Positions 36,331 through 51,761 of a stretch of DNA of 64,000 nt are shown here, piece by piece. The translations under genes and the position numbers were made by a program. Under the pieces are notes generated by a model. The model saw only the letters and a program-made list of their open reading frames with translations. It was not told where the DNA came from and made no database searches. Origin of the DNA: Methyloversatilis thermotolerans (GTDB lineage: Bacteria; Pseudomonadota; Gammaproteobacteria; Burkholderiales; Rhodocyclaceae); NCBI RefSeq assembly GCF_000372885.1, contig NZ_KB889967.1:3175430-3239429 (forward strand), given 5' to 3'. Position 1 is the stretch's first letter, and the number at the start of each line of letters is the position of its first letter.

Positions 36331-36414
36331 GCGCCCGCCGTGCGTCCGTCGGTCGGATTTGGGCGCGGCCGGGTGTGGTGGTATCGTGCGCGCCTGTTCC
36401 GCCATGGCGGAACG

Positions 36415-36612
36415 CGTGCAGGGTGCTTCCGGCGCAGGCCGGAAGTTAAACGGGAAGCAGGTGAGCGGATCCTTCGCAATGCCTGCGCTGCCCCCGCAAC
36501 GGTAAGTGGTCAGGACGTGCCGGATGCCACTGGGCTCTTTGCCCGGGAAGGCGGTACATCCGTGGTCGACATCGACCGCAGCCACGAGCCCGGATACCGG
36601 CCTTGCGTGCTG
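36415..36612 (+). ncRNA. Cobalamin riboswitch
   Basis: Conserved pieces in order: GGTGCTTCCGG and GGAAGTTAAACGGGAAGC near 36423-36458, the core GCTGCCCCCGCAACGGTAAG (36487-36506), GCCACTG (36536) and the B12 box GAGCCCGGATACCGGCC (36586-36602). It ends about 125 bases before the btuB ATG. AdoCbl binding normally sequesters the ribosome site or favours termination, so the downstream btuB-cob genes should be repressed by B12. Confidence 0.92.
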
Positions 36613-36736
36613 AGCGGTCATGCCCGGGGTGTGGCATCGTCACCGGGCCTTGCTGCCTGTGTGTCTTCCCCGGTCATGGCTTCATGACACGGCTGTCGTT
36701 CGGGGACGGGCGACGGCACAGGGAGCACGACAACAC

Positions 36737-38584
36737 ATGCCAAGCCTCACCCCGCCGGCTGCGCGCGGCACCGCGCCGGCCGCTGCACTCGCATCGGTCC
36801 TTGTTTCAACCCTCTTGCCCGCTTCGATGGCCCGGGCCGACGCACATGCGCTCGACGCGGTCGTGGTGACCGCCACCCGCACCGAACAGCGCGTACAGGA
36901 CACGCTGTCCGACGTGACCGTCATCGATCGCGAACAGATCGAGGCGGCCGGCCAGTCCACGCTGACCGAACTGCTGGCCCGTCAGCCGGGGGTGCAGACC
37001 TTCAGCAATGGCGGCCCGGGTGCCAGCAGCGACTACTACATCCGCGGCGCCGAATCGAAACAGAATGTCGTGCTGATCGACGGGGTGCGCGTGGGATCCG
37101 CGACCACCGGCACTGCTTCGCTGCAATACCTGCCGCTGTCGCAGATCGAGCGCATCGAAATCGTGCGCGGTCCGGCCTCCGCGGTGTATGGCGCCGATGC
37201 GGTGGGCGGCGTGATCCAGATATTCACCCGGCGCGGTAGCGACGACGGGATGACGCTGGATGCCTTCGCCGGCGCCGGTACCCACGATACCAACGAAGCC
37301 AGCGCCTTCCTGCGCGGCGGCGACGAACGCTGGCGGCTGTCGCTTGGCGCATCGGTGCTGCGCACCGACGGCATCAATGCCTCCAACTCGCGGCGCTCGG
37401 CCTCCTCACGCAACCCGGATCTGGACGGCTACATCAACCGCAGCTATTCCGGCAGCGTCAGTTTCACGCCGGTGCGCGGCACCGAACTGGGCAGCCAGTT
37501 CCTGTACTCGAGCGGCCGCAACCGCTATGACAGCCGGCTCACCACCGACGATCGCAACGAATTCGAGAACTACAGCGGCAGCGTTCATATCCGCCAGTCC
37601 TGGAACGAGGACTTCAGCACCACGCTGCGGGTGGCGCGCGCGGTCGATTCCTACGACAGCATCACCAGCGTCGTGTCGCCCTTCCGCACGGTCGAGGACA
37701 GCAGCACGCTGGATGCCCGGCTCAAGCTGGCCGGTGGATCGCTGTTCGCGGCGGTGGAACATCGCAGCCAGGATGTCGATACCGCCGCGATAGACCGCCG
37801 GCGCGACATCGATTCCGCGCAACTGGGCTGGTCCGGTCGCATCGGCGCCCATACGCTGCAGCTCAATGGCCGGCATGACAGGTTTTCCGGCGGTCAGAGC
37901 AAGAGCACCGGCAACGCGGCCTGGGGCTATCACCTCACCGACGAGTGGCGCATCCACGCCGGCTATGGCACGGCTTTCCGCCTGCCCACGTTCAACGAGC
38001 TGTACAGCCCGAGCTCCAACTTCGGCAATCCCGATGTCGGGCCCGAGTCCTCGCGCAACAAGGAGGCGGGGCTGGTGTGGCAGCGCCGTGGCTCACGCGC
38101 TTCGGTCACCCTGTACGACAATCGCGTGGACGGCCTGATTCAGACACCCGGCACCAATCTGCCGGTGCAGAACGTGGCGCATGCGACGCTGCGCGGCGCA
38201 ACCTTCGCCGCATCCACCTATGTCGGCCACACCGAACTGTCGGCAAGCCTTGACCTGCTGCATGCCGAGGACGAGGACACCGGCCTGCGGCTGCGTCGGC
38301 GCGCGGCGCAGAGCGGCAATCTGATGGTGCAGCAGCATCTTGCGTGGGGCCGCGTGGGCATCGAACTGCTGCTGGTCGGGGATACGTATTCGACCGCTGG
38401 CCAGCGCGACTGGGTGGCCGGCTACTCGGTCATCAATCTGTTCGGTGTATGGAAGGTGACGCCGGAACTGGCGCTTGAAGGCAGGATGAACAATGTGACC
38501 GACCGGGAGTACAGCACCGTCTATGGCTATGCGACCCCGGGCGCCACGGTATTCGTCGGCCTGCGCTACACGCCGCGCCTCTGA
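36737..38584 (+). CDS. btuB: TonB-dependent vitamin B12 outer-membrane receptor
   Basis: A 615-residue receptor. Signal peptide through about residue 35 (ASMARADA), a TonB box LDAVVVTATRTEQ, the plug domain (VTVIDREQIEAAGQSTLTEL, DYYIRGAESKQNVVLIDGVR, IERIEIVRGPASAVYGADA) and a 22-strand barrel ending ATVFVGLRYTPRL. It takes up cobalamin or other corrinoids using energy from TonB-ExbBD. Directly downstream of a cobalamin riboswitch, which fixes the substrate class. Confidence 0.95.
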   Translation: MPSLTPPAARGTAPAAALASVLVSTLLPASMARADAHALDAVVVTATRTEQRVQDTLSDVTVIDREQIEAAGQSTLTELLARQPGVQTFSNGGPGASSDYYIRGAESKQNVVLIDGVRVGSATTGTASLQYLPLSQIERIEIVRGPASAVYGADAVGGVIQIFTRRGSDDGMTLDAFAGAGTHDTNEASAFLRGGDERWRLSLGASVLRTDGINASNSRRSASSRNPDLDGYINRSYSGSVSFTPVRGTELGSQFLYSSGRNRYDSRLTTDDRNEFENYSGSVHIRQSWNEDFSTTLRVARAVDSYDSITSVVSPFRTVEDSSTLDARLKLAGGSLFAAVEHRSQDVDTAAIDRRRDIDSAQLGWSGRIGAHTLQLNGRHDRFSGGQSKSTGNAAWGYHLTDEWRIHAGYGTAFRLPTFNELYSPSSNFGNPDVGPESSRNKEAGLVWQRRGSRASVTLYDNRVDGLIQTPGTNLPVQNVAHATLRGATFAASTYVGHTELSASLDLLHAEDEDTGLRLRRRAAQSGNLMVQQHLAWGRVGIELLLVGDTYSTAGQRDWVAGYSVINLFGVWKVTPELALEGRMNNVTDREYSTVYGYATPGATVFVGLRYTPRL

Positions 38585-38613: not shown

Positions 38614-39633
38614 ATGGACAGCCACGCTTCCGCCGCCACCGTACCCGTGCCGGTCGCCGATCTGCGGCGCCGCCGGGTGTGGGTGTTGCCGCTGCTTGCG
38701 CTGCTGCTCGCGGCGGCATTCGTGCTGGCGCTGGCGGTGGGCAGCGTGCCGGTCACATGGGTTGATCTGTGGACCCTGGTGACCGGTGGCGATGCCGGCA
38801 TGGCGGGTGCCATCGTCGCGACGCTGCGCCTGCCGCGCGCGATCGCGGCGGCGGCCTGCGGCGGGCTGCTCGCGCTGGCCGGCGCGCTGATGCAGATCCT
38901 GCTGCGCAATCCGCTGGCCGACCCCTATGTGCTGGGCATTTCAGGTGGCGCTGCGGTGGGTGCGTTGCTGGCCATGCTGTTCGGCGTGGCGTCCGCCTTG
39001 CTGGAACTGTCCGCCTTCGCCGGCGCGCTTGCCGCCATGGCGCTGGTGTTCGGGCTGGCGCATGGCGCGGGCAGCCGCACGCCCACCCGTCTGCTGCTCA
39101 CCGGCGTCATCGTGTCGGCCGGCTGTGGCGCCGCGGTGTCCTTCATCCTCGCGGTGGCGAATGAACAGTCGCTGCGCGGCATGCTGTTCTGGCTCATGGG
39201 CGACGCCAGCACCGCCAGCCGCCCCGGTGTGGCCGCCATCGTGCTGATCGCCGGTCTGCTCGCCTGCGCGCCGCTGGCGCGCGATCTCAATCTGCTCACG
39301 CGCGGCGATGCGACGGCGCAACTGCTCGGTGTGCCGGTGGCGCGGCTGCGGCTCGTCGTCTATCTGCTGGCGTCGGCATTGACCGCGGTCGCGGTCACCA
39401 CCGTAGGCTCGGTCGGTTTCGTCGGCCTGGTCGTGCCTCACCTGATACGGCTGGCCTTCGGCAATGACCAGCGCCTGCTGCTGCCGGCCAGTGCGCTGGC
39501 CGGCGCCGCGCTGCTGCTGCTGGCCGATACCGCCGCGCGCACCGTCATCGCGCCGGCGCAGTTGCCGGTGGGCGTACTCACCGCGCTGCTTGGCGTGCCG
39601 GTCTTCCTGTTCCTGCTCAACCGCCATCGATGA
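38614..39633 (+). CDS. btuC: Vitamin B12 ABC transporter, permease
   Basis: A 339-residue FecCD-family permease with about ten membrane segments. LRLPRAIAAAACGGLLALAG, QILLRNPLADPYVLGISGGA and VGFVGLVVPHLIRLAFGNDQ are family hallmarks. It pairs with the ATPase gene that follows (ATGA overlap) and with the BtuF-like protein at 50077-50958. Confidence 0.93.
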   Translation: MDSHASAATVPVPVADLRRRRVWVLPLLALLLAAAFVLALAVGSVPVTWVDLWTLVTGGDAGMAGAIVATLRLPRAIAAAACGGLLALAGALMQILLRNPLADPYVLGISGGAAVGALLAMLFGVASALLELSAFAGALAAMALVFGLAHGAGSRTPTRLLLTGVIVSAGCGAAVSFILAVANEQSLRGMLFWLMGDASTASRPGVAAIVLIAGLLACAPLARDLNLLTRGDATAQLLGVPVARLRLVVYLLASALTAVAVTTVGSVGFVGLVVPHLIRLAFGNDQRLLLPASALAGAALLLLADTAARTVIAPAQLPVGVLTALLGVPVFLFLLNRHR

Positions 39634-40433
39634 CGGCCGGCCACGCATCCCTCGTCGCGCGCGGTGTCGATGTATCGGTGGCCGGCCATGTGCTGTGCGC
39701 GGGCGTCGACCTGGAGGTACGCGCCGGCGAACTGCTGGCCATCGTCGGCCGCAACGGCATCGGCAAGTCCACACTGCTGGCGACGCTCGCCGGCCTGCGC
39801 GCACCTGCTGCTGGCAGCGTGCTGCTGGATGGCCGCGCGCCGGGCGCCTGGCCGGCGCGGGAACTGGCGAAGCGGCGTGCGCTGCTGCCGCAGTCGCACG
39901 AAGATCACTTCGCATCGACCGTGCTCGATACGGTGCTGGTCGGTCGCCATCCGCACATCGGCCGCTGGGCCGACGAGAGCGATGCCGATGTCGCGATCGC
40001 GCTCGAGGCGCTGGCGGCGGTGTCGCTGCGCGGGCGTGAATTGCGCGAGGTGCGCTCCTTGTCCGGCGGCGAGCGGCAGCGTGTGGCCATCGCCGCGCTG
40101 CTGGCGCAGCAGGCGCCACTGTGCCTGCTCGATGAGCCGGTCACCCATCTCGATCTCGACTACCAGATCGAAACGCTGGATCTGTTCGCCCGTCTGGCGC
40201 GCGAACAGGGCCGCGCGGTGGTGGCGGTGCTGCACGATCTGAATCAGGTGCTGCGCTTCGCCGATCGCGCACTGCTGCTGACCGGTGCGGGTGCCTGGCT
40301 GTGCGGACCGGTCGACGAAGTGCTGCAGGCGGAGGTGCTGTCGCGCGCCTTCTGCCATCCGCTGAAGGAATTGCGCGACGAGGGCCGGCGCTATTTCGTG
40401 CCGGCGCAGGAAGGGAATGAGCGGAGGACGTGA
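39630..40433 (+). CDS. btuD: Vitamin B12 ABC transporter, ATPase
   Basis: A 267-residue ABC ATPase. Walker A is IVGRNGIGKSTLLATLAG, the signature RSLSGGERQRVAIAALLAQ, Walker B LCLLDEPVTHLDLDYQ and the switch His in VVAVLHDLNQVL. It is of the FecE/BtuD class. The gene overlaps btuC and cobO. Confidence 0.93.
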   Translation: MTAGHASLVARGVDVSVAGHVLCAGVDLEVRAGELLAIVGRNGIGKSTLLATLAGLRAPAAGSVLLDGRAPGAWPARELAKRRALLPQSHEDHFASTVLDTVLVGRHPHIGRWADESDADVAIALEALAAVSLRGRELREVRSLSGGERQRVAIAALLAQQAPLCLLDEPVTHLDLDYQIETLDLFARLAREQGRAVVAVLHDLNQVLRFADRALLLTGAGAWLCGPVDEVLQAEVLSRAFCHPLKELRDEGRRYFVPAQEGNERRT

Positions 40434-41032
40434 TGAGCGATATCGATGAGCGGCACGAGGCGCGCATGAAGCGCAAGAAGGCGGTGGTGGATCAGGCGAT
40501 CGCCGCTGCCCAGGTCGAACGCGGCGTCCTGGTGGTGAACACCGGCAATGGCAAGGGCAAGTCCAGCGCCGCCTTCGGCGTGGTGGCGCGCGCGCTCGGC
40601 CACGGCATGAAGGTGGGCGTGGTGCAGTTCATCAAGGGCCGCTCGGACACCGGCGAAGAAGCCTTCTTCCGCCGCCAGCCGGACGTGAGCTGGCATGTGT
40701 CGGGCGAGGGCTTCACCTGGGAGACGCAGAGCCGCGCGCGCGACGTCGCCACCGCGGAGGCGGCCTGGCAGCAGGCGCGCCGGCTGCTGGGCGATCCGGC
40801 CATCGGTCTGGTGGTGCTGGACGAGCTGAATATCGCGCTGAAATACCGCTATCTCGATGTCGCCACCGTCATCGCCGACCTGCGCGCGCGGCCGGCCATG
40901 CAGCACGTCATCGTGACCGGCCGCGCGGCGCCGCCGGAATTGATCGAAGCCGCCGATACGGTGAGCGACATGACTCTGGTGAAGCACGCGTTCAAGGCCG
41001 GCGTGAAGGCCATGCCCGGACTGGAATGGTGA
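40433..41032 (+). CDS. cobO: Cob(I)yrinic acid a,c-diamide adenosyltransferase
   Basis: A 199-residue CobA/CobO-type P-loop enzyme that adds the adenosyl group to reduced corrinoids. GVLVVNTGNGKGKSSAAFGV is its nucleotide loop; VGVVQFIKGRSDTGEEAFF, LVVLDELNIALKYRYL and HVIVTGRAAPPELIEAADTV follow. The ATG at 40433 is preferred to a GTG one codon earlier; GGAGG lies just upstream. It overlaps btuD by one base. Confidence 0.95.
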   Translation: MSDIDERHEARMKRKKAVVDQAIAAAQVERGVLVVNTGNGKGKSSAAFGVVARALGHGMKVGVVQFIKGRSDTGEEAFFRRQPDVSWHVSGEGFTWETQSRARDVATAEAAWQQARRLLGDPAIGLVVLDELNIALKYRYLDVATVIADLRARPAMQHVIVTGRAAPPELIEAADTVSDMTLVKHAFKAGVKAMPGLEW

Positions 41033-42330
41033 GCGTGTCGCCGGCAATCCGCCGCTGTCCGGCGCTGATGGTGGCGGCACCGGCGTCCGGTCAGGGCAAG
41101 ACCACGGTGGTCGCGGCACTCGCCCGTCTGCATCGCTCGTGCGGCCGGCGCGTGCGCGTGTTCAAGTGCGGACCGGATTTCCTCGACCCGCAGATCCATG
41201 CGCTGGCCAGCGGTGCGCCGGTGGGCAACGTCGATCTGTGGATGACCGGCGAAGACGATATCGCCGCACGGCTGTATGCCGCGGCGGGCGAGGCGGACCT
41301 CATCCTGGTCGAATCGGTCATGGGCCTGCACGATGGCAGCCCGTCCAGCGCCGACATCGCGCGCCGCTTCGGCCTGCCGGTGCTGGCGGTGATCGACGCG
41401 CGCGCCATGGCGCAGACCTTCGGCGCACTGGCGCACGGCCTGAAGCACTATCGCGATGGTGTGAACCTGTGTGCGGTGATCGCCAATCGGATCGGTTCCG
41501 CGCGCCACGCCGACATGCTGCGCGACAGTCTGCCCGCCGACATCGCCTGGTACGGCGGTCTGCCGCGCGACGAGCGCATCGCGCTGCCGGAACGACACCT
41601 CGGCCTGCTGCCCGCCGCGGAGATCGACGGGCTGGATGCGCAGCTCGACATCGCCGCGCAACTGCTGGGCGCGTCGGCCGCAGCCGATCTGCCGCCGGCG
41701 GTGGCGTTCGCGCCGCTCGCGCATGCGCCGCTGCCGCGCCTGCTCGACGGTGTGCGTGTCGCGGTCGCGCGCGACCCCGCCTTCTGCTTCGTCTATCCGG
41801 CCAATATCGAATGCCTGCGCGCACTCGGCGCGGAACTGACGGAGTTCTCGCCGCTGACCGACGCGGCGCTGCCCGACTGCGATGCGGTGTGGCTGCCCGG
41901 CGGCTACCCGGAACTGCATGCCGCGCGCTGGGCCGGCAATACGGCGATGCATGCGTCCCTGCGCCGGCATGTCGATGCCGGTCGCCCGCTGCTCGCCGAA
42001 TGCGGCGGCATGATGAGCCTGTTCGAAACCCTCGCCGACAAGGCCGGCGCCTGCCACTGCGGCGCCGGCCTGCTGCCCGGCACGGTGCGCATGCAGGCGC
42101 GTCTGGCCGCACTCGGCCTGCAGCAGGTCGCGCTGCCGGAAGGCCTGGTGCGCGGCCACACCTTCCACTACTCGGTGGCCGATACGCCGCTGCCGCCCGT
42201 GCTGCAGGCGAGCACACCGGACGGACGTCCGGGCGAGGCGGTGTATCGCGTCGGCCGGCTCACCGCCAGCTACGTCCATCTGTACTTCCCGTCACAGCCG
42301 CAGGCGGTGGCCGCGCTGTTCATGCCCTGA
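41026..42330 (+). CDS. cobB: Cobyrinate a,c-diamide synthase
   Basis: A 434-residue glutamine amidotransferase. N-terminal domain: MVAAPASGQGKTTVVAALAR (P-loop), VFKCGPDFLDPQIHALASG, VESVMGLHDG. C-terminal glutaminase: CDAVWLPGGYPELHA and PLLAECGGMMSLFE with the catalytic Cys, RGHTFHYS and ASYVHLYFPSQP. The start overlaps cobO by seven bases (ATG 41026 or GTG 41029). It amidates cobyrinate, or hydrogenobyrinate in the aerobic route. Confidence 0.94.
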   Translation: MVSVSPAIRRCPALMVAAPASGQGKTTVVAALARLHRSCGRRVRVFKCGPDFLDPQIHALASGAPVGNVDLWMTGEDDIAARLYAAAGEADLILVESVMGLHDGSPSSADIARRFGLPVLAVIDARAMAQTFGALAHGLKHYRDGVNLCAVIANRIGSARHADMLRDSLPADIAWYGGLPRDERIALPERHLGLLPAAEIDGLDAQLDIAAQLLGASAAADLPPAVAFAPLAHAPLPRLLDGVRVAVARDPAFCFVYPANIECLRALGAELTEFSPLTDAALPDCDAVWLPGGYPELHAARWAGNTAMHASLRRHVDAGRPLLAECGGMMSLFETLADKAGACHCGAGLLPGTVRMQARLAALGLQQVALPEGLVRGHTFHYSVADTPLPPVLQASTPDGRPGEAVYRVGRLTASYVHLYFPSQPQAVAALFMP

Positions 42331-45300
42331 TGGCAATGCGCCTGTTCGCACTGTGCCTGTTGTGCTGCGGGCTGTCGCTGCCAGCGATGGCCGCCACCGT
42401 GTTCGCCGTGGTGTCCGAGCGCGCGGCGCCCGATGTGGCCGCTGCCGCTGCGGTACTTGCCGCGGATCCGGCCTTCGCCCGGCGCCACACGCTGCGCGTG
42501 CGCACGCCGGCGCAGATCGAGGCGATGTCGGCGGCGGAACTGGGCCGCGCGCTGGCCGCGGCCGATACGGTGCTGGCGGTGGCCGCCTTCGGCGAGTCCG
42601 GCCCGCGACTGCGGCACGCGCTCGAGGCGCTGCCGCCCCGTCCTGCGGTATTCGCATTCAATGCCGAAGGCCCGGGCGCGCTGGCGCCACTGACCCGGCG
42701 CGGCACGTCGTCCTTGCAGGCGTGGTCGCCGGAGGCGCTGTCGGTGCTGCTGCGCGAGCCGGCGGATGCCGCGTCCGCGGCGCGCGGCGACAGCGATGCG
42801 CTGCTGCGCGAGTGGCGCGCGCTGCGGGCGCTGTGGCAGGCCGGTGGCGCCGACAATCTGGTCGCCCTGCTGCGCCATCTGGCACAGCCCGGTCCGCTGC
42901 CCGCCGTGCGCCCGGTCGCCGACCTGATATGGCGTGTGGATGGACGCGCGCATGGCGATGACGAGATGCTGGCGTTGCCGGCGGACGGCCCGGTGGTGGC
43001 GGTGCTCGATCTGGTGAACCAGGACGCGCACATCGCCGATGCGCAGTGCGCTGCCCTCCGCGCGCGCGGACTGCGTTGTGTCGCGGTCATGGCGCGCTGG
43101 GGCGAGGCCACCCGGCGCGCCGTGCTGTCGCTGCCGGCACGCATCGCGCCCGCGCGGCTGTCCGCATTGGTCGTGCTGCAGGATTTCGTGCTCGGCGCGG
43201 CGGAAGGGCGCGAGGCGGTGACCGCCGCGCTGCAGTCGCTGGATGTGCCGGTGTTCAAGGCGCTGCGGCTGCAGGAACGCAGCCGCGCCGAATGGGCGCT
43301 GTCCGCCGACGGCTTGCCGGCGGCCAGCGTGCAGTACCGGATCGCACTGCCGGAACTGCAGGGCGTGGGCCAGCCGCAGGTGGTGGCGGTGGCCGGTCCG
43401 CTGATGATCGATGCGCTGACCGGTGTGCAGCTCCGTCGCCCGCAACCGCTGCAGGCGGAAATGGCGCGTCTGGCCGCGCGCGTCGCCCGCTGGCAGTCGC
43501 TGCGCGACACGCCCCCGGCGCAGCGACGCATCGCCCTCATCTATTACAACCATCCGCCAGGCCGGCAGAACATCGGTGCCGACAATCTGGATGTGCCGGC
43601 GTCCTTGTTGCAGATGCTGCAGGCGCTGCAGGCCGCCGGCTACCACACCGGTGCGCTGCCCGACACGCCGGAGGCCCTGCTCGATATGCTGATGGATCGC
43701 GGTGTGAATCTGCCGGAGGACGGCCGCGAACTGGCGCGACTGGCGCGCGAGCTGCCTTCGCTCGGAGCGACGGATTACCAGCGCTGGTTCGATACCCTGC
43801 CGCTGGCGCTGCGGCTGGAAGTGGCCGAAGGCGCGCCGGGGCGCATCCACGGTGATGTGCTGGCGGCGCGCGAAGCCGGTCTGCCCGCCACCGGTCGCGC
43901 GCGCATCGAGCATGGCGTGGCCGAGCTGCGCCATCTGCTGGAAGGCATCGAACATCCGCGACGCGAGCGCGCGCTGGCGCTGCTCGACACCATCGAACGG
44001 GCCTGGCTGCGCTGTGTCGCGCGCGATCCGGGCGAGCACTGCGCGCATGCCGCGCAGTTGCGGCGCGACATCGTCGCGCTCGGCATTCCGGGCTTGCGCG
44101 GCTGGGGCCGTGCGCCCGGGCGGGTCATGGTGAGCGGCGGCCGGCTGGTCATACCCGGTCTGCAGTTCGGCAATGTGTGGGTCGGTCCGCAGCCGCCGCG
44201 CGGCTGGGAAGTGGATGAGGAACTGCTGCACGCCAACACCAGCATCCCGCCGCCGCACCAGTATCTGGCGGTGTACCAGTGGCTGCGCGAGCACTTCCGC
44301 GCCGATGCGCTGGTGCATGTGGGCCGCCATTCCACCTATGAATTCCTGCCCGGCAAGGCGGTGGGTCTGGCGGCCACCGACTATCCCTCGCTCATCGCCG
44401 GCGATCTGCCCGGCATCTATCCCTACATCGTCGATGGCGTGGGCGAAGGCACCCAGGCCAAGCGCCGCGGCGGCGCGGTCATGATCGATCATCTGACGCC
44501 GCCGCTGTCTGCCACGCCGCTGTATGACAGCCTGCTCACGCTGCGCCAGCTGGTGGAGAGCTTCGAAAGTTCCAGTTCGGACGAATTGCGCGCGCGCGCT
44601 GCCGGCGAAATGCGCCGCCAGGTCGAAGCGCTGGAACTGCGCGCCGAGCTGGAAGCCAGCATGGCCGATGTACTTACCGTGCGCGGTCTGCGCTTCGAAC
44701 AGGTGGACGATGAACTGCTCGCGCACGAAATCGGCCATTACCTGACCAAGCTGCAGGAAAAGTTCATGCCGCTCGGACTGCATGTGTTCGGCCGGCGCTG
44801 GAGCGAGCAGGCGCTGGACACCATGATGGTGTCCATGGCGCGCGGCGACGACGCCGACATGGTGCGCGCGCGGCTGGCGGCATCGCCCGATGCGGAAATG
44901 GCCGCCCTGCTGGCCGCGCTCGACGGCCGTTTCGTCGCGCCCGGCAAGGGCAACGATCCGCTGCGCGCGCCCGATGCGCTGCCTACCGGCCGCAATTTCC
45001 ATGCGGTGGATGGCGACGTGCTGCCGACCCGGCTCGGCCATGCGCTCGGCCGCGAACAGGCGGCGCGCGTGCTCGCGCGGCCGGCGGCGGGCGGGTCGGA
45101 GGGCGTGGTCATGTGGGCGTCCGATGCGGTGCGCGACGAAGGTGTCATGCTCGGCTTCAGCCTGGCGCTGATGGGCGTGGAGCCGCAGTGGAATGCGCGC
45201 GGCGTGGTGCAGGGACTGACGCTGGCGCCGGCCCCGGAGGGCGGTCGTCGCGATGTCATCGTCACCACGTCCGGCCTGTTCCGCGACCTCTATCCCAATC

Positions 45301-46634
45301 TGGTGAACATGCTGGACCGCGCCGGGCGCCTGGCGCTGGCCGCCAGCGCGCACCACATCGCCGCCGGCGACGACAGGCTGGCGCAGGCGCTGCGGGCGGC
45401 GCTTGCGCCGCTGGGCGATGCCGTGCCGGCGGCGGGCGACGAGCCGCTGGACAGCAATGCGGTGGCCTCGCAATGGCGGCAGCGCGCACAGGCACTGATG
45501 GCCGCTGGCCACAGCCCGGAACAGGCCGGGCGCGCAGCGGCCTGGCGCGTGTTCGGCGACGCGCCCGGTGCCTATGGTGCCGGCGTGAACCGCTTGGCCG
45601 AGCGTTCGGGAAGCTGGCAGTCGCGCGTACAGCTCGGCCGCGTCTATCTGCGCCGCATGGGTCATGCCTACGGGCTGGATGCCGGCGGCGAACCGGCGCA
45701 TGCCGCCTTCGATCTTTCCGTTGCGCAGCTCGCACGCACCTATCACGGACGCGCCAGCAATCTGTATGGCCTGCTCGACAACAACGATGCCTTCGACTAT
45801 CTCGGTGGCCTCAGTCTGGCGGCGGAAACGCTGACCGGTCGCGTGCCGGATGCGCAGGTGCTGTACAACGCCGACCCTGCGCGCACCGATGTGCAGCCGC
45901 TGGCGACCGCGCTGCTGTCGGAACTGCGCGGCCGCTATCTGAACCCGGAGTGGATAGGGCCGCTGATGGGGCATGGCTATGCCGGCGCGCGCACCTTCGG
46001 CCAGGAATTCATGGAGAACCTGTGGGGCTGGCAGGTCACGCGGCCCGATCTGATCCGCGACTGGGCGTGGGAAGAAGTGAAGCAGGTCTATCTTGACGAC
46101 CGTCACGGCCTCGGTCTGCCGGCCTTCCTCGAACGCGGGCACAACGGACATGTGAAGGCGCAGATGCTGGCCATCATGCTGGTCGCGGTACACAAGGGTT
46201 TCTGGCAGGCCGACGACGCGACCGTGCGGCGTCTGGCGCACGATCTGGTGGCCCAGTTGCGGCGCACCGGGTTGCCCGGCAGCGGTCATACCGCGCCCGG
46301 GCATCCGATGTGGGACTGGCTGGTGCCCCGGCTCGACGATGGCGATGCGCGCAGCCTGCGCGCGGTGCTCGATGGCGCGCGCGGCGAGTCTGCCGCACGC
46401 CCGGCGGTCGCTGCCGACGCTGCGACCCGGCCCGGCGCGGCGGCCCCTGCGCAACGGCCTGACGAAGCGACCGCGGCGGCGTCCGTTGCCGCCTCCGCTG
46501 CGCTGAAGTGGACCGAATTGCAGCGCGCACCCGCGCCTGCGCCGTCCTCCCCGCCCTGGCCGCTGGCGGCGCTGGCCGTGCTGCTGGTCGCGGTCGGCGC
46601 CGCACGCGGTGCCGGCCTGTCACGATTTCGATGA
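42330..46634 (+). CDS. CobN-like chelatase subunit with signal peptide and C-terminal membrane anchor
   Basis: A 1434-residue CobN/BchH-type protein, longer than cytoplasmic CobN. It begins with a Sec signal peptide (MAMRLFALCLLCCGLSLPAM) and ends with an Ala/Pro-rich linker and a hydrophobic segment (PLAALAVLLVAVGAARG, about 1411-1428). The chelatase core is clear: IALIYYNHPPGRQNIGADNL, NVWVGPQPPRGWEVDEELLH, HVGRHSTYEFLPGKAVGLAA (about 661-680), VGEGTQAKRRGGAVMIDHLT, and a C-terminal LLDNNDAFDYLGGLSLAAE. The signal peptide predicts a periplasmic protein. No cobS or cobT ATPase gene lies in the operon. It overlaps cobB (TGATG) and is followed by ExbB-like and DUF2149 genes. I infer a periplasmic metal insertion or removal role on tetrapyrroles, with corrinoids likeliest. 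Confidence 0.88.
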   Translation: MAMRLFALCLLCCGLSLPAMAATVFAVVSERAAPDVAAAAAVLAADPAFARRHTLRVRTPAQIEAMSAAELGRALAAADTVLAVAAFGESGPRLRHALEALPPRPAVFAFNAEGPGALAPLTRRGTSSLQAWSPEALSVLLREPADAASAARGDSDALLREWRALRALWQAGGADNLVALLRHLAQPGPLPAVRPVADLIWRVDGRAHGDDEMLALPADGPVVAVLDLVNQDAHIADAQCAALRARGLRCVAVMARWGEATRRAVLSLPARIAPARLSALVVLQDFVLGAAEGREAVTAALQSLDVPVFKALRLQERSRAEWALSADGLPAASVQYRIALPELQGVGQPQVVAVAGPLMIDALTGVQLRRPQPLQAEMARLAARVARWQSLRDTPPAQRRIALIYYNHPPGRQNIGADNLDVPASLLQMLQALQAAGYHTGALPDTPEALLDMLMDRGVNLPEDGRELARLARELPSLGATDYQRWFDTLPLALRLEVAEGAPGRIHGDVLAAREAGLPATGRARIEHGVAELRHLLEGIEHPRRERALALLDTIERAWLRCVARDPGEHCAHAAQLRRDIVALGIPGLRGWGRAPGRVMVSGGRLVIPGLQFGNVWVGPQPPRGWEVDEELLHANTSIPPPHQYLAVYQWLREHFRADALVHVGRHSTYEFLPGKAVGLAATDYPSLIAGDLPGIYPYIVDGVGEGTQAKRRGGAVMIDHLTPPLSATPLYDSLLTLRQLVESFESSSSDELRARAAGEMRRQVEALELRAELEASMADVLTVRGLRFEQVDDELLAHEIGHYLTKLQEKFMPLGLHVFGRRWSEQALDTMMVSMARGDDADMVRARLAASPDAEMAALLAALDGRFVAPGKGNDPLRAPDALPTGRNFHAVDGDVLPTRLGHALGREQAARVLARPAAGGSEGVVMWASDAVRDEGVMLGFSLALMGVEPQWNARGVVQGLTLAPAPEGGRRDVIVTTSGLFRDLYPNLVNMLDRAGRLALAASAHHIAAGDDRLAQALRAALAPLGDAVPAAGDEPLDSNAVASQWRQRAQALMAAGHSPEQAGRAAAWRVFGDAPGAYGAGVNRLAERSGSWQSRVQLGRVYLRRMGHAYGLDAGGEPAHAAFDLSVAQLARTYHGRASNLYGLLDNNDAFDYLGGLSLAAETLTGRVPDAQVLYNADPARTDVQPLATALLSELRGRYLNPEWIGPLMGHGYAGARTFGQEFMENLWGWQVTRPDLIRDWAWEEVKQVYLDDRHGLGLPAFLERGHNGHVKAQMLAIMLVAVHKGFWQADDATVRRLAHDLVAQLRRTGLPGSGHTAPGHPMWDWLVPRLDDGDARSLRAVLDGARGESAARPAVAADAATRPGAAAPAQRPDEATAAASVAASAALKWTELQRAPAPAPSSPPWPLAALAVLLVAVGAARGAGLSRFR

Positions 46635-46646
46635 AAGGATGAAGCG

Positions 46647-47087
46647 ATGACCGATCTGTCCTGGGTCCATGAAGGGGTGAAGCTCTTGCTGCTGCCGGTG
46701 ATGGCGGTGTTGCTCGCCGCGTGTGCGCTGGCGCTGCTGGAAGCCGGGCTGGCGGCTGGCGAGCGGCTGCGCGGACTGGCGCGCCTGCGCGCGCAGGGCG
46801 ACGCACATGCGGTGGAAAGACTGGCGCGGCGCCGGCTCGAACGCGCCGACCTGCTGGCGCGGGTGCCGCCCATGCTCGGTCTGATGGCCACCATCATTCC
46901 GCTCGGGCCGGGGCTGGCCGCGCTCGGTCGCGGCGAATCGCAACTGCTGGCGCAGGCGGTCACGGTGGCCTTCGATGCCACGGTGCTCGGCCTGGCTGCC
47001 GGCATCGTCGGGCTGTGGGTGGGCCGGCTGCGCCGCCGCTGGTATGACGAACTGCTGGATGAACTGGAGATGGAGGGCGTACGATGA
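46647..47087 (+). CDS. ExbB/MotA/TolQ-like proton-channel protein
   Basis: A 146-residue protein with three membrane segments (about 11-33, 72-90, 104-128). The pattern ARVPPMLGLMATIIPLGPGL then TVAFDATVLGLAAGIVGLWV is that of the MotA/TolQ/ExbB core, here in a short form with little cytoplasmic domain. Such proteins form pentameric channels that turn proton flow into movement of a periplasmic partner. It starts 12 bases after the CobN-like gene and overlaps the DUF2149 gene (ATGA), so it most likely serves the CobN-like protein. Confidence 0.85.
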   Translation: MTDLSWVHEGVKLLLLPVMAVLLAACALALLEAGLAAGERLRGLARLRAQGDAHAVERLARRRLERADLLARVPPMLGLMATIIPLGPGLAALGRGESQLLAQAVTVAFDATVLGLAAGIVGLWVGRLRRRWYDELLDELEMEGVR

Positions 47088-47389
47088 GGCGCACGCTGCC
47101 GCGCCGGCTGCATTCGCGTTTCGACACCGGTGACGAGGATCCGCGCGCCAGCCTGGTGAACCTGGTCGACGTGATGCTGGTATTCGCCTGCGGTCTGCTG
47201 GCCGCGCTGACCGCCGGCGGTCAGGCCATCCTGAAGCCGGTCGAGGTCGAGCGCGGCCGCGAAATCAGTGCGCCCGAGCGTGGCGCCCGCCAGCCCGGCG
47301 ATGGCATGCAGGCGCTGGGTCAGGTGTATCTCGATCCGCAGACCGGCAAAATGATACTGATCGAACAGCCCGCGACCCGCGCCCCATGA
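47084..47389 (+). CDS. DUF2149-family small membrane protein, ExbD-resembling
   Basis: A 101-residue protein with one membrane segment near 25-45. [20 protein letters not shown] puts an Asp at the start of the segment, as in ExbD and TolR, whose channel Asp carries protons. A short soluble part follows with [19 protein letters not shown], which would lie in the periplasm. The DUF2149 family accompanies CobN-like and ExbB-like genes in other genomes as I recall. It overlaps both neighbours by four bases. Confidence 0.82.
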
Positions 47390-48051
47390 CTTCACGCCAG
47401 CCTCTGCCCGATTTTGCCGACGACGAACGTGCCGCGGTGTACCGCGCCATCGCCGAGCGGCGCGACATGCGGCATTTCCGTCCGGATCCGGTGGCGCCGG
47501 ATGTGCTGGCGCGACTGCTGTGGGCGGCGCATCACGCGCCCAGCGTCGGCTACATGCAGCCCTGGCGCTTCGTGCGCGTGACCGACCGCGCGCTGCGCCA
47601 GTGCATGCACGCGCTGATCGACGAGGAGCGCGTCGCCACCGCGCAGGCGCTGGGCGAACGCGAACAGGAATTCATGCGGCTCAAGGTCGAAGGCGTGCTG
47701 GACTGTGCCGAGGTGGTGGTGGTGGCGCTGTGCGCCGATCGCGAGCGCCACGTGTTCGGCCGCCGCACCATGCCGGACATGGATGTCGCCTCCTGCGCCT
47801 GCGCCATCCAGAACATGTGGCTGGCGGCGCGCGCCGAAGGCCTGGGCATGGGCTGGGTTTCCATCTTCGATCCCGCCCGTCTGGCCGCGCTGCTCGCCAT
47901 GCCCGAGGGCGCCCGCCCGCTCGCCGTGCTGTGCCTGGGCCATGTCGATGGCTATTACCCGGCGCCCATGCTGGAGATGGAGGGCTGGGCGCAGCGCCTG
48001 CCCGAAGACATGCTGATCGGCGAAAACCGCTGGCCGGAGGATGCGCAGTGA
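47386..48051 (+). CDS. bluB: 5,6-dimethylbenzimidazole synthase
   Basis: A 221-residue nitroreductase-fold flavoenzyme that cleaves FMNH2 to form the lower ligand of B12. BluB markers: [55 protein letters not shown] and [15 protein letters not shown]. It overlaps the DUF2149 gene by four bases and cbiB by four (GTGA). Confidence 0.95.
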
Positions 48052-48998
48052 TCGCCCAGCAGGGCTTCCTGATGACGGTGCTGTGCGCGGCCGCCGCCAT
48101 CATGCTGGACCGCGCGCTGGGCGAGCCGCGCCGCCTGCATCCGCTGGTCGCCTTCGGTACCCTGGCCGGGCGTCTGCAGCGCCTGATGAATGCGCCGCTC
48201 ACGCAGCGCGATCCGGCGACCCGGCTCACCGGCCTCATCGCCTGGTCGCTGGCGGTGCTGCCCTTGGTGGGGCTGGCCGGCTGGCTGCGCGGGCTGGATC
48301 CGTCGCTCGCGGTGCTGGTCGATGTCGGCCTGCTCTATCTCGCGCTGGGCGCGCGCAGTCTGGCCGAACACGCGCATGCAGTGTCGCGGCCGCTGGCCGC
48401 CGGCGACCTCGGCGAGGCCCGTCGCCGCGTCGGCTGGATGGTGAGCCGTGACACTTCGCAGCTCGACGAGGCGGGCGTGGCGCGCGCCGCCACCGAGTCG
48501 GTGCTGGAAAACGGCAACGACGCGGTGTTCGCTGCGCTGTTCTGGTTCCTGCTGCTGGGCGGGCCCGGCGCGCTGCTGTTCCGGCTGGCCAACACGCTGG
48601 ATGCGATGTGGGGTTACCGCACGCCGCCACTGCGCTACTTCGGCTGGGCCGCGGCGCGCATCGACGATCTGCTCAATTTCGTGCCGGCCCGGCTCACCGC
48701 ATTGAGCTATGCGCTGTGCGGCGCCACCGGACGCGCGCTCGCCTGCTGGCGCACCCAGGCGCCGGCATGGGACAGCCCGAATGCCGGCCCGGTGATGGCT
48801 GCCGGCGCCGGTGCCTTGCGCGTGTCGCTGGGCGGCGCGGCCATCTACCACGGCAATGTGGAACAGCGACCGCCGCTGGGCGAGGGGGCCCAGCCGTCGG
48901 CCGCCGACATCGACCGCGCGGTGGCGCTGGTCGGCGCAGCACTCAGAGTGTGGATGACCGTGCTCGCCATCGTGGCGGTGCTGTTGCAGTTCGCATGA
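48048..48998 (+). CDS. cbiB: Adenosylcobinamide-phosphate synthase, membrane protein
   Basis: A 316-residue protein with about five membrane segments (CbiB/CobD). It begins at a GTG; then [79 protein letters not shown] and [20 protein letters not shown] are all typical. It joins the aminopropanol phosphate arm to cobyric acid. The symbol cobD is used in the aerobic-pathway nomenclature. Confidence 0.94.
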
Positions 48999-50008
48999 GG
49001 AGCACCGCGACACCCGAACATGGCGGCCGGCTGCTGCAGGCCGCCGCCCGTTACGACATTCCGGTGGAAGACTGGCTGGACCTGTCCACCGGCATCCATC
49101 CCGAACCCTGGCCGGTGCCGCCGCTGCCGCAGTCGGTGTGGCAGCGTCTGCCCGAGGATGACGACGGGCTGGATGCCATCGCGGCGGCCTGTTACGGGAG
49201 CGCCGCGCTGCTGCCGCTGGCCGGATCCCAGGCCGCGATACAGCGCCTGCCGTCCTTGTTTCCGCGCAGCCGGGTGACCCTGCTCGCGCCCACCTACAAC
49301 GAACATCCGCACGGCTGGCTGCGCGCCGGCCACGCGGTGCGCGGTGTCGCACCGCGCGACATCGAACCGGCGGTCGATGACAGCGACGTGCTGCTGCTGG
49401 TGCAGCCCAACAACCCGTGCGGCACGCTGTTTCCGGTCGGCCAGGTGCTGGACTGGCATGCCCGGCTGGCCGCGCGCGGCGGCACGCTCATCGTGGACGA
49501 AGCCTTCATCGATGCGCAGCCGGATGCCAGCGTGGTTTCGTATTGCGGAGACGAGGTGCCGGGCCTGGTGGTGCTGCGCTCGCTCGGCAAGTTCTTCGGG
49601 CTGGCCGGGGCGCGGGTCGGCTTCCTGTTCGGCCCGCGTGCGCTGCGCGAGCGCCTGGCCGCCGACATCGGACCGTGGCCGGTGGCCGGTCCGTCGCGCT
49701 GGGTGGCGGCGCGTGCGCTGGCCGATCGCGACTGGCAGCACGCGCAGCGCGCGCGGCTGGCCGCCGACGCGGAACGGCTGGCGGCGCTGTTGCGCGCAAG
49801 CGGCTGGGGCGAGGTCAGTGGCTGTGCGCTGTTCCAGCGCGTGCTGACCACGCGTGCCGCGGCGGTGCACGACGCCTTCTGCCGGCGCGGCATCCTGCTG
49901 CGCCTGTTCGACGCGCCGTCCGCGCTGCGCTTCGGCCTGCCGGGTGACGCGGCGCAGTGGCAGCGGCTGGAAGCGGCGATCGATGCGCTGCGCGGCGTGC
50001 CCGCATGA
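48995..50008 (+). CDS. cobC: Threonine-phosphate decarboxylase
   Basis: A 337-residue PLP enzyme of the CobC/CobD type that makes (R)-1-amino-2-propanol phosphate for Cbi[18 protein letters not shown] at the N-terminus, [29 protein letters not shown], and the Schiff-base Lys in [20 protein letters not shown]. It overlaps cbiB by four bases (ATGA). Confidence 0.93.
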
Positions 50009-50076: not shown

Positions 50077-50958
50077 ATGAGAACCTTGTGTGTCCTGTTG
50101 TGTGCCGTGCTGGCGCTGCCGGCGGCGGCGGCGGAACTGAAAGTGACCGACGACGCCGGCCATGCCGTCGTGTTGCCGGCGCCGGCCCGGCGCATCGTCA
50201 GTCTGGCGCCACATGTGACCGAACTGCTGTTCGCCGCCGGCGCCGGTGCACAGGTGGTGGGCGCCACGCAGTACAGCGACTGGCCGGAGGCAGCGAAGGC
50301 GGTACCGCGCGTGGGCGGCTATACCTCGGTCGACATGGAAGCGGTGGTGGCGCTCAAGCCCGATCTGGTGATCGCCTGGAAGAGCGGCAACCGCAACCAG
50401 CAGTACGACAGGCTGCAGAAGCTGGGCATCCCGGTGTATGTGAACGAACCGCGCTCGCTGGAGGACGTGGCGCGTTCGCTGGAACAGTTCGGCCGGCTGG
50501 CCGGCACGCCGCGCGAAGCGGAGGCGGCCGCGCGCGCCTTCCGTGCGCGCCGCGATGCGCTGGCGGCGCAGTACGCGCAGCGGCCTGCGCTCACCGTGTT
50601 CTACCAGATCTGGAACAAGCCGCTGATGACCATCAACGGCCAGCACCTCATTTCCGATGTGATGGCGCTGTGTGGCGGGCGCAATGTGTTCGCCGGCCTG
50701 CCCATGCTGGCGCCGACGGTGACCGAGGAGGCGGTGCTGGCGGCCGCACCCGAGGTGATCGTCGCCAGCGGCATGGGCGAGTCACGGCCGGAATGGCTGG
50801 ATGCCTGGCGTCGCTGGAGCGCGCTGCCGGCAGTGAAGAACGACAACCTGTACTTCATTCCGCCGGAAATCCTGCAACGGCACACGCCGCGCATCCTCGA
50901 TGGCGCCACGCGTCTGTGCGAACAGCTCGAACAGGCGCGCGGCAGGGCGCCACGATGA
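50077..50958 (+). CDS. btuF: Vitamin B12 ABC transporter, periplasmic binding protein
   Basis: A 293-residue exported protein: signal peptide MRTLCVLLCAVLALPAAAAE, then the class III binding fold with RRIVSLAPHVTELLFAAGAG, VVGATQYSDWPEAAKAVPRV, VVALKPDLVIAWKSGN and LTVFYQIWNKPLMTINGQHL. It would deliver corrinoids to BtuCD. GGAAAGAGA precedes the ATG at 50077; in-frame ATGs upstream give no better signal. Confidence 0.93.
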   Translation: MRTLCVLLCAVLALPAAAAELKVTDDAGHAVVLPAPARRIVSLAPHVTELLFAAGAGAQVVGATQYSDWPEAAKAVPRVGGYTSVDMEAVVALKPDLVIAWKSGNRNQQYDRLQKLGIPVYVNEPRSLEDVARSLEQFGRLAGTPREAEAAARAFRARRDALAAQYAQRPALTVFYQIWNKPLMTINGQHLISDVMALCGGRNVFAGLPMLAPTVTEEAVLAAAPEVIVASGMGESRPEWLDAWRRWSALPAVKNDNLYFIPPEILQRHTPRILDGATRLCEQLEQARGRAPR

Positions 50959-51761
50959 CTTCGCCCGCGGACCGGCTGCCACGCCGCATCGCCTGCCTGT
51001 GCACCGAAGCGGTCGAGGTGCTGTACGCGCTCGGCGAAGCCGACCGTATCGCCGGCATTTCCGGCTTCACCGTGCGGCCGCCCGAAGCGCGCCGCGAAAA
51101 ACCGAAGATCAGCGGCTTCTCGACCGGCAAGGTGGAGCGCATCCTGGCGGTGCAACCCGATCTGGTGCTGGCCTTCTCCGATCTGCAGGCCGACCTGTGT
51201 CGCGATCTGGTGCGTGCCGGGCTGGAGGTGCATGTATTCAACCAGCGCTCGCTCGACGGCATCCTGCGCATGGTGACGACGCTGGGCGCGCTGGTCGGCC
51301 GGAGTGTCGAGGCGCAGGCGCTGGTCGAGCGGCTGCGGCAGGGGCTGGAAGCGGCGCGCATGCGCGGCGAGGCGCGCATCGCCCGCCATGGCCGGCGCCT
51401 GCGCGTCTATTTCGAGGAATGGGACGAGCCGCTGATATCCGGCATACGCTGGGTGTCCGAGCTGATCGAACTGGCGGGTGGCGAGGACGTGTTCGCCGAT
51501 CTGTCCCGCTTCCACAGCGCGCGCGAGCGCCGCATAGACGACCCGGCAAGCGTGCTGGCGCGCGCGCCCGACGTCATGATCGCTTCGTGGTGCGGCAAGA
51601 AATTCCAGCCGGCGCAGGTGCGCGCCAGACCCGGCTGGGCAGCGCTGCCGGCCGTGGCGGCGAATCGCGTATACGAAATCAAGTCGCCATTGATACTGGC
51701 GCCCGGCATCGCCGCGCTGACCGACGGACTGGTCGCGCTGGAGGCCTGTCTGGACGGCTGA
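50955..51761 (+). CDS. BtuF-like corrinoid-binding protein without a signal peptide
   Basis: A 268-residue protein with the same binding-protein fold (CLCTEAVEVLYALGEADRIA, VERILAVQPDLVLAFSDLQA, RSLDGILRMVTTLGALVGRS, RVYEIKSPLILAPGIAALTD). It starts MTSPADRLPRRIA with no hydrophobic leader, and the four-base overlap with btuF leaves no room for an alternative exported start. It should be cytoplasmic. It may bind or store corrinoid after import; this is inference. Last gene of the riboswitch operon; no terminator was recognised behind it (51762-52002 holds nothing identifiable). Confidence 0.8.
   Translation: MTSPADRLPRRIACLCTEAVEVLYALGEADRIAGISGFTVRPPEARREKPKISGFSTGKVERILAVQPDLVLAFSDLQADLCRDLVRAGLEVHVFNQRSLDGILRMVTTLGALVGRSVEAQALVERLRQGLEAARMRGEARIARHGRRLRVYFEEWDEPLISGIRWVSELIELAGGEDVFADLSRFHSARERRIDDPASVLARAPDVMIASWCGKKFQPAQVRARPGWAALPAVAANRVYEIKSPLILAPGIAALTDGLVALEACLDG

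Follow-up and report, generated by a model that had tools for sequence, protein, structure and literature searches.

The window (the whole stretch of DNA that was analysed, 64,000 nucleotides of Methyloversatilis thermotolerans) contains an operon headed by a cobalamin riboswitch (Table 1). One of its reading frames starts with the ATG at 42330, ends with a stop at 46634, overlaps cobB by 1 nt and encodes a 1434-residue CobN-like protein, here called eCobN. The frame of the btuB-like receptor is open from 36620, and its start at 36737 was chosen by us. The first-pass annotation had described a riboswitch operon lacking cobS and cobT, and indeed neither gene is seen in it.

Table 1. Features of the eCobN locus, in window positions
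Feature	Position	Strand	Evidence
cobQ, cobyric acid synthase	34692..36146	+	upstream of riboswitch; NF001989 650.8 bits, cut-off 273
cobalamin riboswitch	36404..36619	+	operon head; Rfam RF00174, 112.7 bits, gathering threshold 31.5
btuB-like TonB-dependent receptor	36737..38584	+	plug and barrel Pfam domains; TIGR01779 (TonB-B12) 395 bits, under cut-off 599.7
btuC-like permease	38614..39633	+	FecCD 292.8 bits; NCBIfam BtuC 229.8, under cut-off 334
btuD-like ATPase	39630..40433	+	ABC_tran 107.2 bits
cobO, corrinoid adenosyltransferase	40433..41032	+	TIGR00708 217.4 bits, cut-off 167.75
cobB, cobyrinate/hydrogenobyrinate a,c-diamide synthase	41026..42330	+	NF002204 433.6 bits, cut-off 254
eCobN, putative exported CobN-like chelatase	42330..46634	+	predicted leader in residues 1-21 and anchor at the C-terminus; His667 and Asp1153 in the chelatase body
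ExbB/TolQ-like inner-membrane protein, three helices	46647..47087	+	PF01618 34.9 bits, cut-off 22.9
DUF2149 protein, one membrane helix with Asp29 (ExbD-like)	47084..47389	+	PF09919 33.1 bits, cut-off 27.1
bluB, dimethylbenzimidazole synthase	47386..48051	+	TIGR02476 268.3 bits, cut-off 150
cbiB, adenosylcobinamide-phosphate synthase	48048..48998	+	TIGR00380 202.8 bits, cut-off 165.9
threonine-phosphate decarboxylase (cobC/cobD)	48995..50008	+	TIGR01140 342.4 bits, cut-off 290.55
btuF-like periplasmic binding protein	50077..50958	+	PF01497 116.7 bits
second btuF-like binding protein	50955..51761	+	PF01497 140.1 bits; no evident leader (N-terminus judged by reading)

eCobN matches PF02514 with 815.9 bits in three stretches that cover profile positions 3-352, 353-606 and 679-1089 and leave 607-678 uncovered. 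With most of the profile matched, it belongs to the class I chelatase large subunits. None of the nine matching NCBIfam CobN/BchH models reaches its cut-off (top score 577.8 versus 1248), and the whole body is about equally close to CobN (365 bits), ChlH (336 bits) and HmuS (323 bits). The N-terminus reads MAMRLFALCLLCCGLSLPAMA and continues with an alanine, before which the putative leader would be cleaved. The C-terminal helix, LAALAVLLVAVGAARGAGLSRFR, has a mean hydropathy of 2.03. A CobN-family protein with a leader and a C-terminal anchor, as noticed earlier, is thus borne out. A crude leader rule of our own (a basic residue, an uncharged hydrophobic stretch and small-x-small) is satisfied by 88 of the 98 sequences of the eCobN clade, 10/15 other exported types, 0/12 cytosolic CobN and 0/3 BchH sequences. 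Plain N-terminal hydropathy does not discriminate, being found in 96/98 of the clade, yet also in 3/12 cytosolic CobN and 3/3 BchH. A C-terminal anchor (hydropathy of at least 1.2) is present in 82/98, 15/15, 0/12 and 0/3, respectively. Judged from sequence, export of eCobN is well supported.

Three PF02514 genes occur in the genome, encoding BchH, a second exported CobN-like protein and eCobN; none is a cytosolic CobN. The view that there is no cobS-cobT partner elsewhere is supported by the absence of any genomic match to PF06213 (CobT), the CobST component on which this search relies. BchI/BchD-like matches are present (457.9 and 219.5 bits), and eCobN falls within neither CobNST nor CobN-ChlID. 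The corrin-ring marker CbiC/CobH was not found in this genome and CbiK has no match.

At least 584 relatives were found and 80 named loci were kept, so that the idea of a lone betaproteobacterial oddity was rejected. A named relative, from Methyloversatilis universalis, shows 80% identity. The sample contains 98 members of the eCobN clade, which has a support of 100, comes mostly from beta- and gammaproteobacteria and is separate from cytosolic CobN and from the other exported types in a tree calculated without any HmuS sequence. In 72/80 named loci eCobN is preceded on its own strand by a cobalamin riboswitch, at a distance of about 700 nt or less in 41 of the 72 and up to 8 kb away in 31, where the two may not share a transcript. 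The riboswitch is also found in 12/13 further eCobN loci and in 0/13 loci of other exported CobN types. A search pattern built on the B12-box consensus missed Pseudomonas riboswitches that Rfam detects, and the count therefore rests on a covariance model trained on 11 sequences, ten of them among the 80 loci; outside these ten it stands at 62/70. Matches in two loci (L094 and L095) are weak and Rfam gives none there. Of the eight loci lacking a covariance-model match, five start less than 3 kb before eCobN; Rfam detects a riboswitch that the model missed in L075, and in L069 and L104 none was found. The proposed periplasmic placement and dedication to B12 are supported by the leader and anchor counts and by the riboswitch contrast (72/80 versus 0/13), and we regard the dedication as well supported.

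The pairing of eCobN with ExbB-like and DUF2149 genes, which the first-pass annotation did not mention, is conserved across loci; the survey of downstream neighbours excluded 4/93 loci with less than 1.5 kb downstream. PF01618 is matched by 13/13 aligned ExbB-like members, and the AlphaFold model of the protein at this locus (pLDDT 95) has TolQ/ExbB as top Foldseek matches, with a lowest E value of only 0.015. Profile and three-helix fold together place it in the ExbB/TolQ/MotA family. DUF2149 (HmuV) is said in PMC13227078 (2026) to have no homology to any known family. Its Asp29, in a membrane helix, is invariant (63/63), and an aspartate so placed, in a [PN]LVDVMLV motif, would be the mark of an ExbD-like mode of action; the helix spans residues 20-49 of a model that is weak outside it (mean pLDDT 67). 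ExbD (PF02472) matches 0/13 DUF2149 members even at E values up to 10. A profile alignment to one ExbD with hhalign gives an E value of 5e-4, with a probability of only 32%, and pairs Asp29 with the ExbD aspartate. Together the two proteins look like a proton-driven motor. In the fetched stretches of Marinobacter loci the anchor, the ExbB-like gene and the DUF2149 gene are missing together, while btuB is retained.

The active-site residue His667 is conserved in 98/98 sequences of the clade. Asp1153 is likewise invariant (98/98) and is found in 12/12 cytosolic CobN, whereas HmuS has His1209 at this position. The HmuS motif LSLDHxxEFMGG containing His1209 is not matched by eCobN, which reads LDNNDAFDYLGG with an aspartate replacing the histidine. 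Asp1153 is no proof of corrin chemistry because 12/15 other exported types share it.

Exported CobN-like proteins are already known. The BtuS family is reportedly that of Rodionov et al. 2003. BtuS is described as CobN-like, exported and anchored on the periplasmic side (PMC6460266), a description that eCobN matches by hydropathy and leader rule. Unlike the role proposed here, BtuS1 and BtuS2 of B. fragilis serve haem-iron use in Bacteroides, and the passages about them in that source do not discuss the ExbB/DUF2149 pairing, aerobic clusters or cobalt insertion. The haem dechelatase operon HmuS/HmuU/HmuV of Bacteroidota likewise encodes a CobN-family body with predicted membrane helices at both ends (PMC12583661), with ExbB-like and DUF2149 partners and a TonB receptor (PMC12583661, PMC13227078, PMC10434189); where that operon has hmuY, the eCobN locus has corrinoid genes and a cobalamin riboswitch. 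PA1922-PA1925 of Pseudomonas aeruginosa is also an operon that encodes a TonB receptor, a CobN-like protein, a protein of the proton-channel type and a DUF2149 protein, and is controlled by zinc (Zur regulon) rather than by a B12 riboswitch (PMC4542158, PMC9431628). For a chelatase beside a TonB receptor in Chlorobaculum tepidum, insertion of cobalt into an acquired corrinoid has already been speculated upon (cited in PMC8620254). Against this background and the number of relatives, the suggestion that a corrinoid-dedicated relative in a betaproteobacterium would be new was too strong.

The CobN of CobNST and CobN-ChlID shares with eCobN the class I body, the cavity His and Asp and the position between cobB and cobO. 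eCobN differs in being predicted to be exported and anchored, in having no AAA+ motor and no CobW in the clusters seen, and in scoring under every CobN cut-off. CbiK-P is a class II enzyme with a fold different from that of the CobN family. Found in Desulfovibrio vulgaris, it resembles the proposed eCobN in being a periplasmic cobalt chelatase (PMC4063343).

CbiC/CobH is absent from 11/17 eCobN genomes, including this one, and present in six, five of which have an oxygen-type (CobG) ring cluster. A search of these five genomes, which occupy only two places in the tree, covered CbiX, CbiK, PF02514 and ChlI/ChlD; no CbiX, CbiK or second PF02514 gene was found, and no ChlI/ChlD-type motor (matches of at most 37.8 bits, compared with at least 311 bits in 13/13 genomes with cytosolic CobN). 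In some related bacteria no candidate other than eCobN was found for inserting cobalt during B12 synthesis. All five clusters run in the order eCobN, ExbB-like, DUF2149, cobO, cobB, cobA, cbiD, an ABC-2 pair, cobG, cobH, cobI, cobJ, cobL and cobM, with bluB inserted in two. The ABC-2 exporter pair occurs in 0/6 cob loci fetched from cytosolic-CobN genomes, where cobW, cobN and chlI lie together in 3/6 stretches; it may be a bystander. G755 has CbiX inside the same cluster as eCobN, and in Zoogloea dura genes resembling CbiX, CbiD and CbiG lie close to eCobN; neither seems to depend on eCobN for its own synthesis. The mutual exclusion of eCobN and cytosolic CobN holds for the genomes sampled here and should not be read as a law; G527 and G818, with broken PF02514 pieces, were left out of the classing, and in Azotobacter chroococcum one strain has eCobN (L061) and another a plasmid cobN cluster. 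Retention of CobB could be taken as a sign that early intermediates are taken up, an argument weakened by the figure of 46% of precursor salvagers generally that have cbiA/cobB (PMC6461909).

We propose, with a probability of roughly 0.5, that eCobN is a periplasmic class I cobaltochelatase that is coupled to the proton gradient via the ExbB-like/DUF2149 pair and inserts Co(II) into metal-free corrins. The substrate, the direction, the coupling and the exporter role are what we infer. The body would sit in the periplasm, held by the C-terminal helix, which would couple it to the proton channel in the inner membrane. This channel would take the place of the CobST or ChlID motor, unusable in the periplasm because there is no ATP. 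The Marinobacter versions, which keep the B12 operon without anchor and motor, count against the proposal. Since the HmuS body still dechelates haem in vitro when its membrane helices are missing and ATP is absent (PMC12583661), a motor is not always needed. The corrins would be home-made in producers and imported in salvagers. In oxygen-dependent producers the ring would be built in the cytoplasm, exported by ABC-2, metallated outside and re-imported by a transporter of the BtuFCD type. Salvagers, this Methyloversatilis among them, would admit metal-free corrins from other cells via BtuB, metallate them in the periplasm and pass them via BtuFCD to CobO, CobB, CobQ and the loop enzymes. Cobalt-starved purple sulfur bacteria do produce cobalt-free corrinoids (PMC6771967).

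The same fold family and similar partner genes (HmuU being ExbB-like and HmuV DUF2149; PMC13227078, PMC10434189) would also suit a periplasmic dechelatase like HmuS, for which removal is proven (PMC12583661), stripping metal from imported tetrapyrroles or wrong-metal corrins to yield cobalt or a usable ligand. The nearest solved structure to the C-terminal third of eCobN is indeed HmuS (131 bits, compared with 106 for CobN). We nevertheless consider this unlikely, since the five CobG genomes require an inserting enzyme, of which no other was found in the search described above, and the second HmuS histidine is an aspartate throughout the clade (98/98). Moreover, removal of cobalt is disfavoured because cobalt corrins are reported not to give up the metal unless the ligand is destroyed (PMC6771967). 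The first-pass annotation had proposed that metal is removed, exchanged or loaded, and the related genomes favour loading.

Less likely still is a corrinoid handler that carries out no metal chemistry, binding corrinoids delivered by BtuB and, with the ExbB-like/DUF2149 pair, passing them to BtuF or aiding the receptor. The order btuB, eCobN, btuF in several loci (e.g. L060, L064 and L065) is in agreement with it, and in the view of the authors of the HmuS work HmuU/HmuV energise the receptor (PMC12583661). The invariant active-site residues speak against it, as do the many loci that have their own riboswitch and no recognised receptor nearby, and Marinobacter, which keeps btuB and not the pair. 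An ordinary cytosolic cobaltochelatase that borrows the photosynthesis BchI/BchD is very improbable: such genes exist here, but 16/17 eCobN genomes are without this motor (at most 47.1 bits), on which ground eCobN as a BchI/BchD partner was rejected. The leader, the anchor, the separation of the clade from CobN and the missing ring-gene marker in this genome also argue against it.

If eCobN is a proton-coupled periplasmic cobaltochelatase, many 'cobaltochelatase' annotations would gain a location and an energy source other than those of the textbook enzyme, and it would be explained how cobalt is inserted by those CobG-type producers that have no detected CobN, CbiX or CbiK. Metal-free corrins would be a shared nutrient and DUF2149 (HmuV) would be offered a role. 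More tentatively, and on balance doubtfully, B12 synthesis may be partly periplasmic in some bacteria, with ABC-2 export of a metal-free corrin, proton-driven ExbB/ExbD-like metallation and re-uptake, and loss of the ring genes may leave importers like this organism. The eCobN proposal is testable in culturable methylotrophs.

Export of eCobN, the CobN-like chelatase encoded in the window, is near certain. Its reading frame is intact and overlaps cobB by 1 nt, and the operon is headed by a cobalamin riboswitch. From btuC through the second btuF-like gene, adjacent reading frames mostly overlap, by 1-7 nt; gaps of 12 nt and 68 nt precede the ExbB-like gene and btuF, respectively. No leader peptide is evident in the second btuF-like protein, which has relatives in several related operons and may be a cytoplasmic corrinoid binder.

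Coordinates of eCobN and of related genes and modules
Feature	Locus	Position
eCobN reading frame	window	42330-46634
Second btuF-like protein	window	50955-51761
Second module: TonB receptor, ExbB-like, DUF2149 and exported CobN-like genes	L007, own genome	6438-13551 (contig 1 about 514438-521551)
Exported CobN-like gene of the second module, preceded by the other three	own genome	contig 1, 517994
bchH, with bchL and bchB nearby; Methyloversatilis-like genome	L008, own genome	contig 1 2479001-2499000
Cytosolic-type CobN directly downstream of exported-type CobN	L021	4143-12211

That eCobN serves corrinoids is indicated most strongly by its control through a cobalamin sensor. Using a model trained on 11 riboswitches, a cobalamin riboswitch was found upstream of eCobN and on the same strand at 72 of the 80 named loci (the best 80 of 584 confirmed relatives), and in 41 of these 72 its distance from the gene is about 700 nt or less. 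Rfam alone detects the riboswitch in 6/6, 6/6 and 3/7 of the eCobN loci tried. It is also present at 12 of 13 further eCobN loci, one of them weak, and was found at none of 13 loci of other exported CobN-like types. At many loci with a riboswitch close to eCobN no further B12 gene was recognised nearby. Dedication of eCobN to B12 is very likely.

The closest named relative among the matches listed is from Methyloversatilis universalis (best segment 80% identical). A scan of species genomes confirmed 584 relatives, of which the best 80 include proteins from Massilia, Duganella, Zoogloea, Dechloromonas, Methylobacillus, Stutzerimonas, Azotobacter, Marinobacter, Halomonas, Colwellia, Methylophaga, Nitrospina, one myxobacterial MAG and others. 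The type is uncommon, occurring in 13 of 377 whole genomes of the class and three of 200 of the order, the own genome not counted. In a FastTree phylogeny of 128 rows, the 98 eCobN-type proteins form a single branch (support 100) that groups with 15 other exported proteins (support 99), apart from 12 cytosolic CobN (support 100) and three BchH; the deep joins are less sure because FastTree warned of long branches.

The family His is kept in all 98 eCobN-type proteins. At the position of His1209 of HmuS, described as a proven haem dechelatase in excerpts of PMC12583661, all 98 have Asp, as do all 12 cytosolic CobN and 12 of the 15 other exported proteins, the remaining three having His. This Asp separates eCobN from HmuS, but alone is no proof of corrin chemistry.

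A partnership of eCobN with the ExbB-like/DUF2149 pair encoded directly downstream is likely. Among 89 loci with enough downstream sequence, both partner genes and a clear eCobN anchor are present at 76, and five have both genes with an anchor that is weak (L043, L086, L089), missing (L049) or, the reading frame being broken, unseen (L099). All three are absent from eight loci, every one from Marinobacter and of one clade, and so counted as one event; a plasmid-borne Marinobacter copy (L144) is consistent with these. The Marinobacter loci retain the btuB-like receptor, which speaks for action of the pair on the chelatase and not on the receptor, contrary to the assignment of HmuU/HmuV to powering the receptor in the HmuS system (PMC12583661, in part). 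The sole membrane helix of DUF2149 has an invariant Asp (63/63), commonly within the motif NLVDVML, for which one ExbD has TPLVDVML. The two families are not joined in Pfam, and hhalign gives weak support for their relationship.

CbiC/CobH (a marker of corrin-ring synthesis), CobT and CbiK were not found in the own genome, which has one CbiX-type gene; from this the organism is predicted to salvage corrinoids. Its bacteriochlorophyll genes, in a genome like those of the methylotrophic genus Methyloversatilis, comprise BchH, BchL and part of BchB. CbiC/CobH is absent from 11 of 17 genomes with eCobN and present in 23 of 25 comparison genomes with other genes of the CobN/BchH family PF02514.

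Among the CbiC/CobH-positive eCobN genomes, G755 carries CbiX within the same cluster; the other five (G649, G537, G559, G771 and G822, each estimated 99% complete) have CobG, whose substrate is a metal-free precorrin. CobG exceeds the NCBIfam cut-off in the two genomes tested (323.0 and 270.2 versus 234.8) and is recognised in the remaining three by Pfam domains and 50-64% identity to the first CobG. These five genomes, which sit at two separate places of the tree, yielded no CbiX, CbiK, PF02514 gene besides eCobN or ChlI/ChlD match above 37.8 bits, and eCobN is the only chelatase candidate found. CobB catalyses the step preceding cobalt insertion and CobO the one following it; their genes are next to eCobN, or close to it, in the window as in each of the five genomes. 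In the aerobic pathway, as outlined in part of PMC7689651, CobN together with CobST inserts cobalt at a late step, into hydrogenobyrinic acid a,c-diamide. The odds that eCobN inserts cobalt in the periplasm are about even.

In all five CobG clusters (L129-L131, L133, L134), genes for an ABC-2 pair of the YadH-type subfamily, an ATPase and a permease (L129 permease: NF011648, 299.5 bits versus a cut-off of 225), lie between cbiD and cobG. No such pair was found in six 20 kb cob stretches of cytosolic-CobN genomes, where CobG is visible in four and CobN in three. The ABC-2 pair is possibly a corrinoid exporter; that it exports the corrin is speculative. A btuF-like and a partial btuC-like gene adjoin the L129 cluster, and we infer that corrin would be re-imported in the other CobG genomes as well.

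No cobalamin riboswitch was found at the second module of the own genome, whose TonB receptor best matches haem receptors, with scores below their cut-offs. At L021, ExbB-like/DUF2149 partners of the exported-type CobN were not recognised within the stretch. Searches of an open-access library turned up no description of a riboswitch-controlled proteobacterial clade with ExbB/DUF2149 or of a periplasmic class I cobaltochelatase; prior mention is possible in subscription papers, e.g. Rodionov 2003. A periplasmic location is predicted for B. fragilis BtuS1/BtuS2 (PMC6460266, in part).

On Runella slithyformis plasmid pRUNSL01 (L141), TonB receptor, ExbB-like, DUF2149 and exported-type CobN genes sit among the hydrogenase-maturation genes hypF, hypC, hypD and hypE, which suggests a nickel-related version. 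A similar module in P. aeruginosa belongs to the Zur regulon (excerpts of PMC4542158), and the Bacteroidota counterpart serves haem. From these cases, the combination of exported CobN with ExbB/DUF2149 seems to be a general module for the metals of tetrapyrroles, and the eCobN clade would be its B12 branch.
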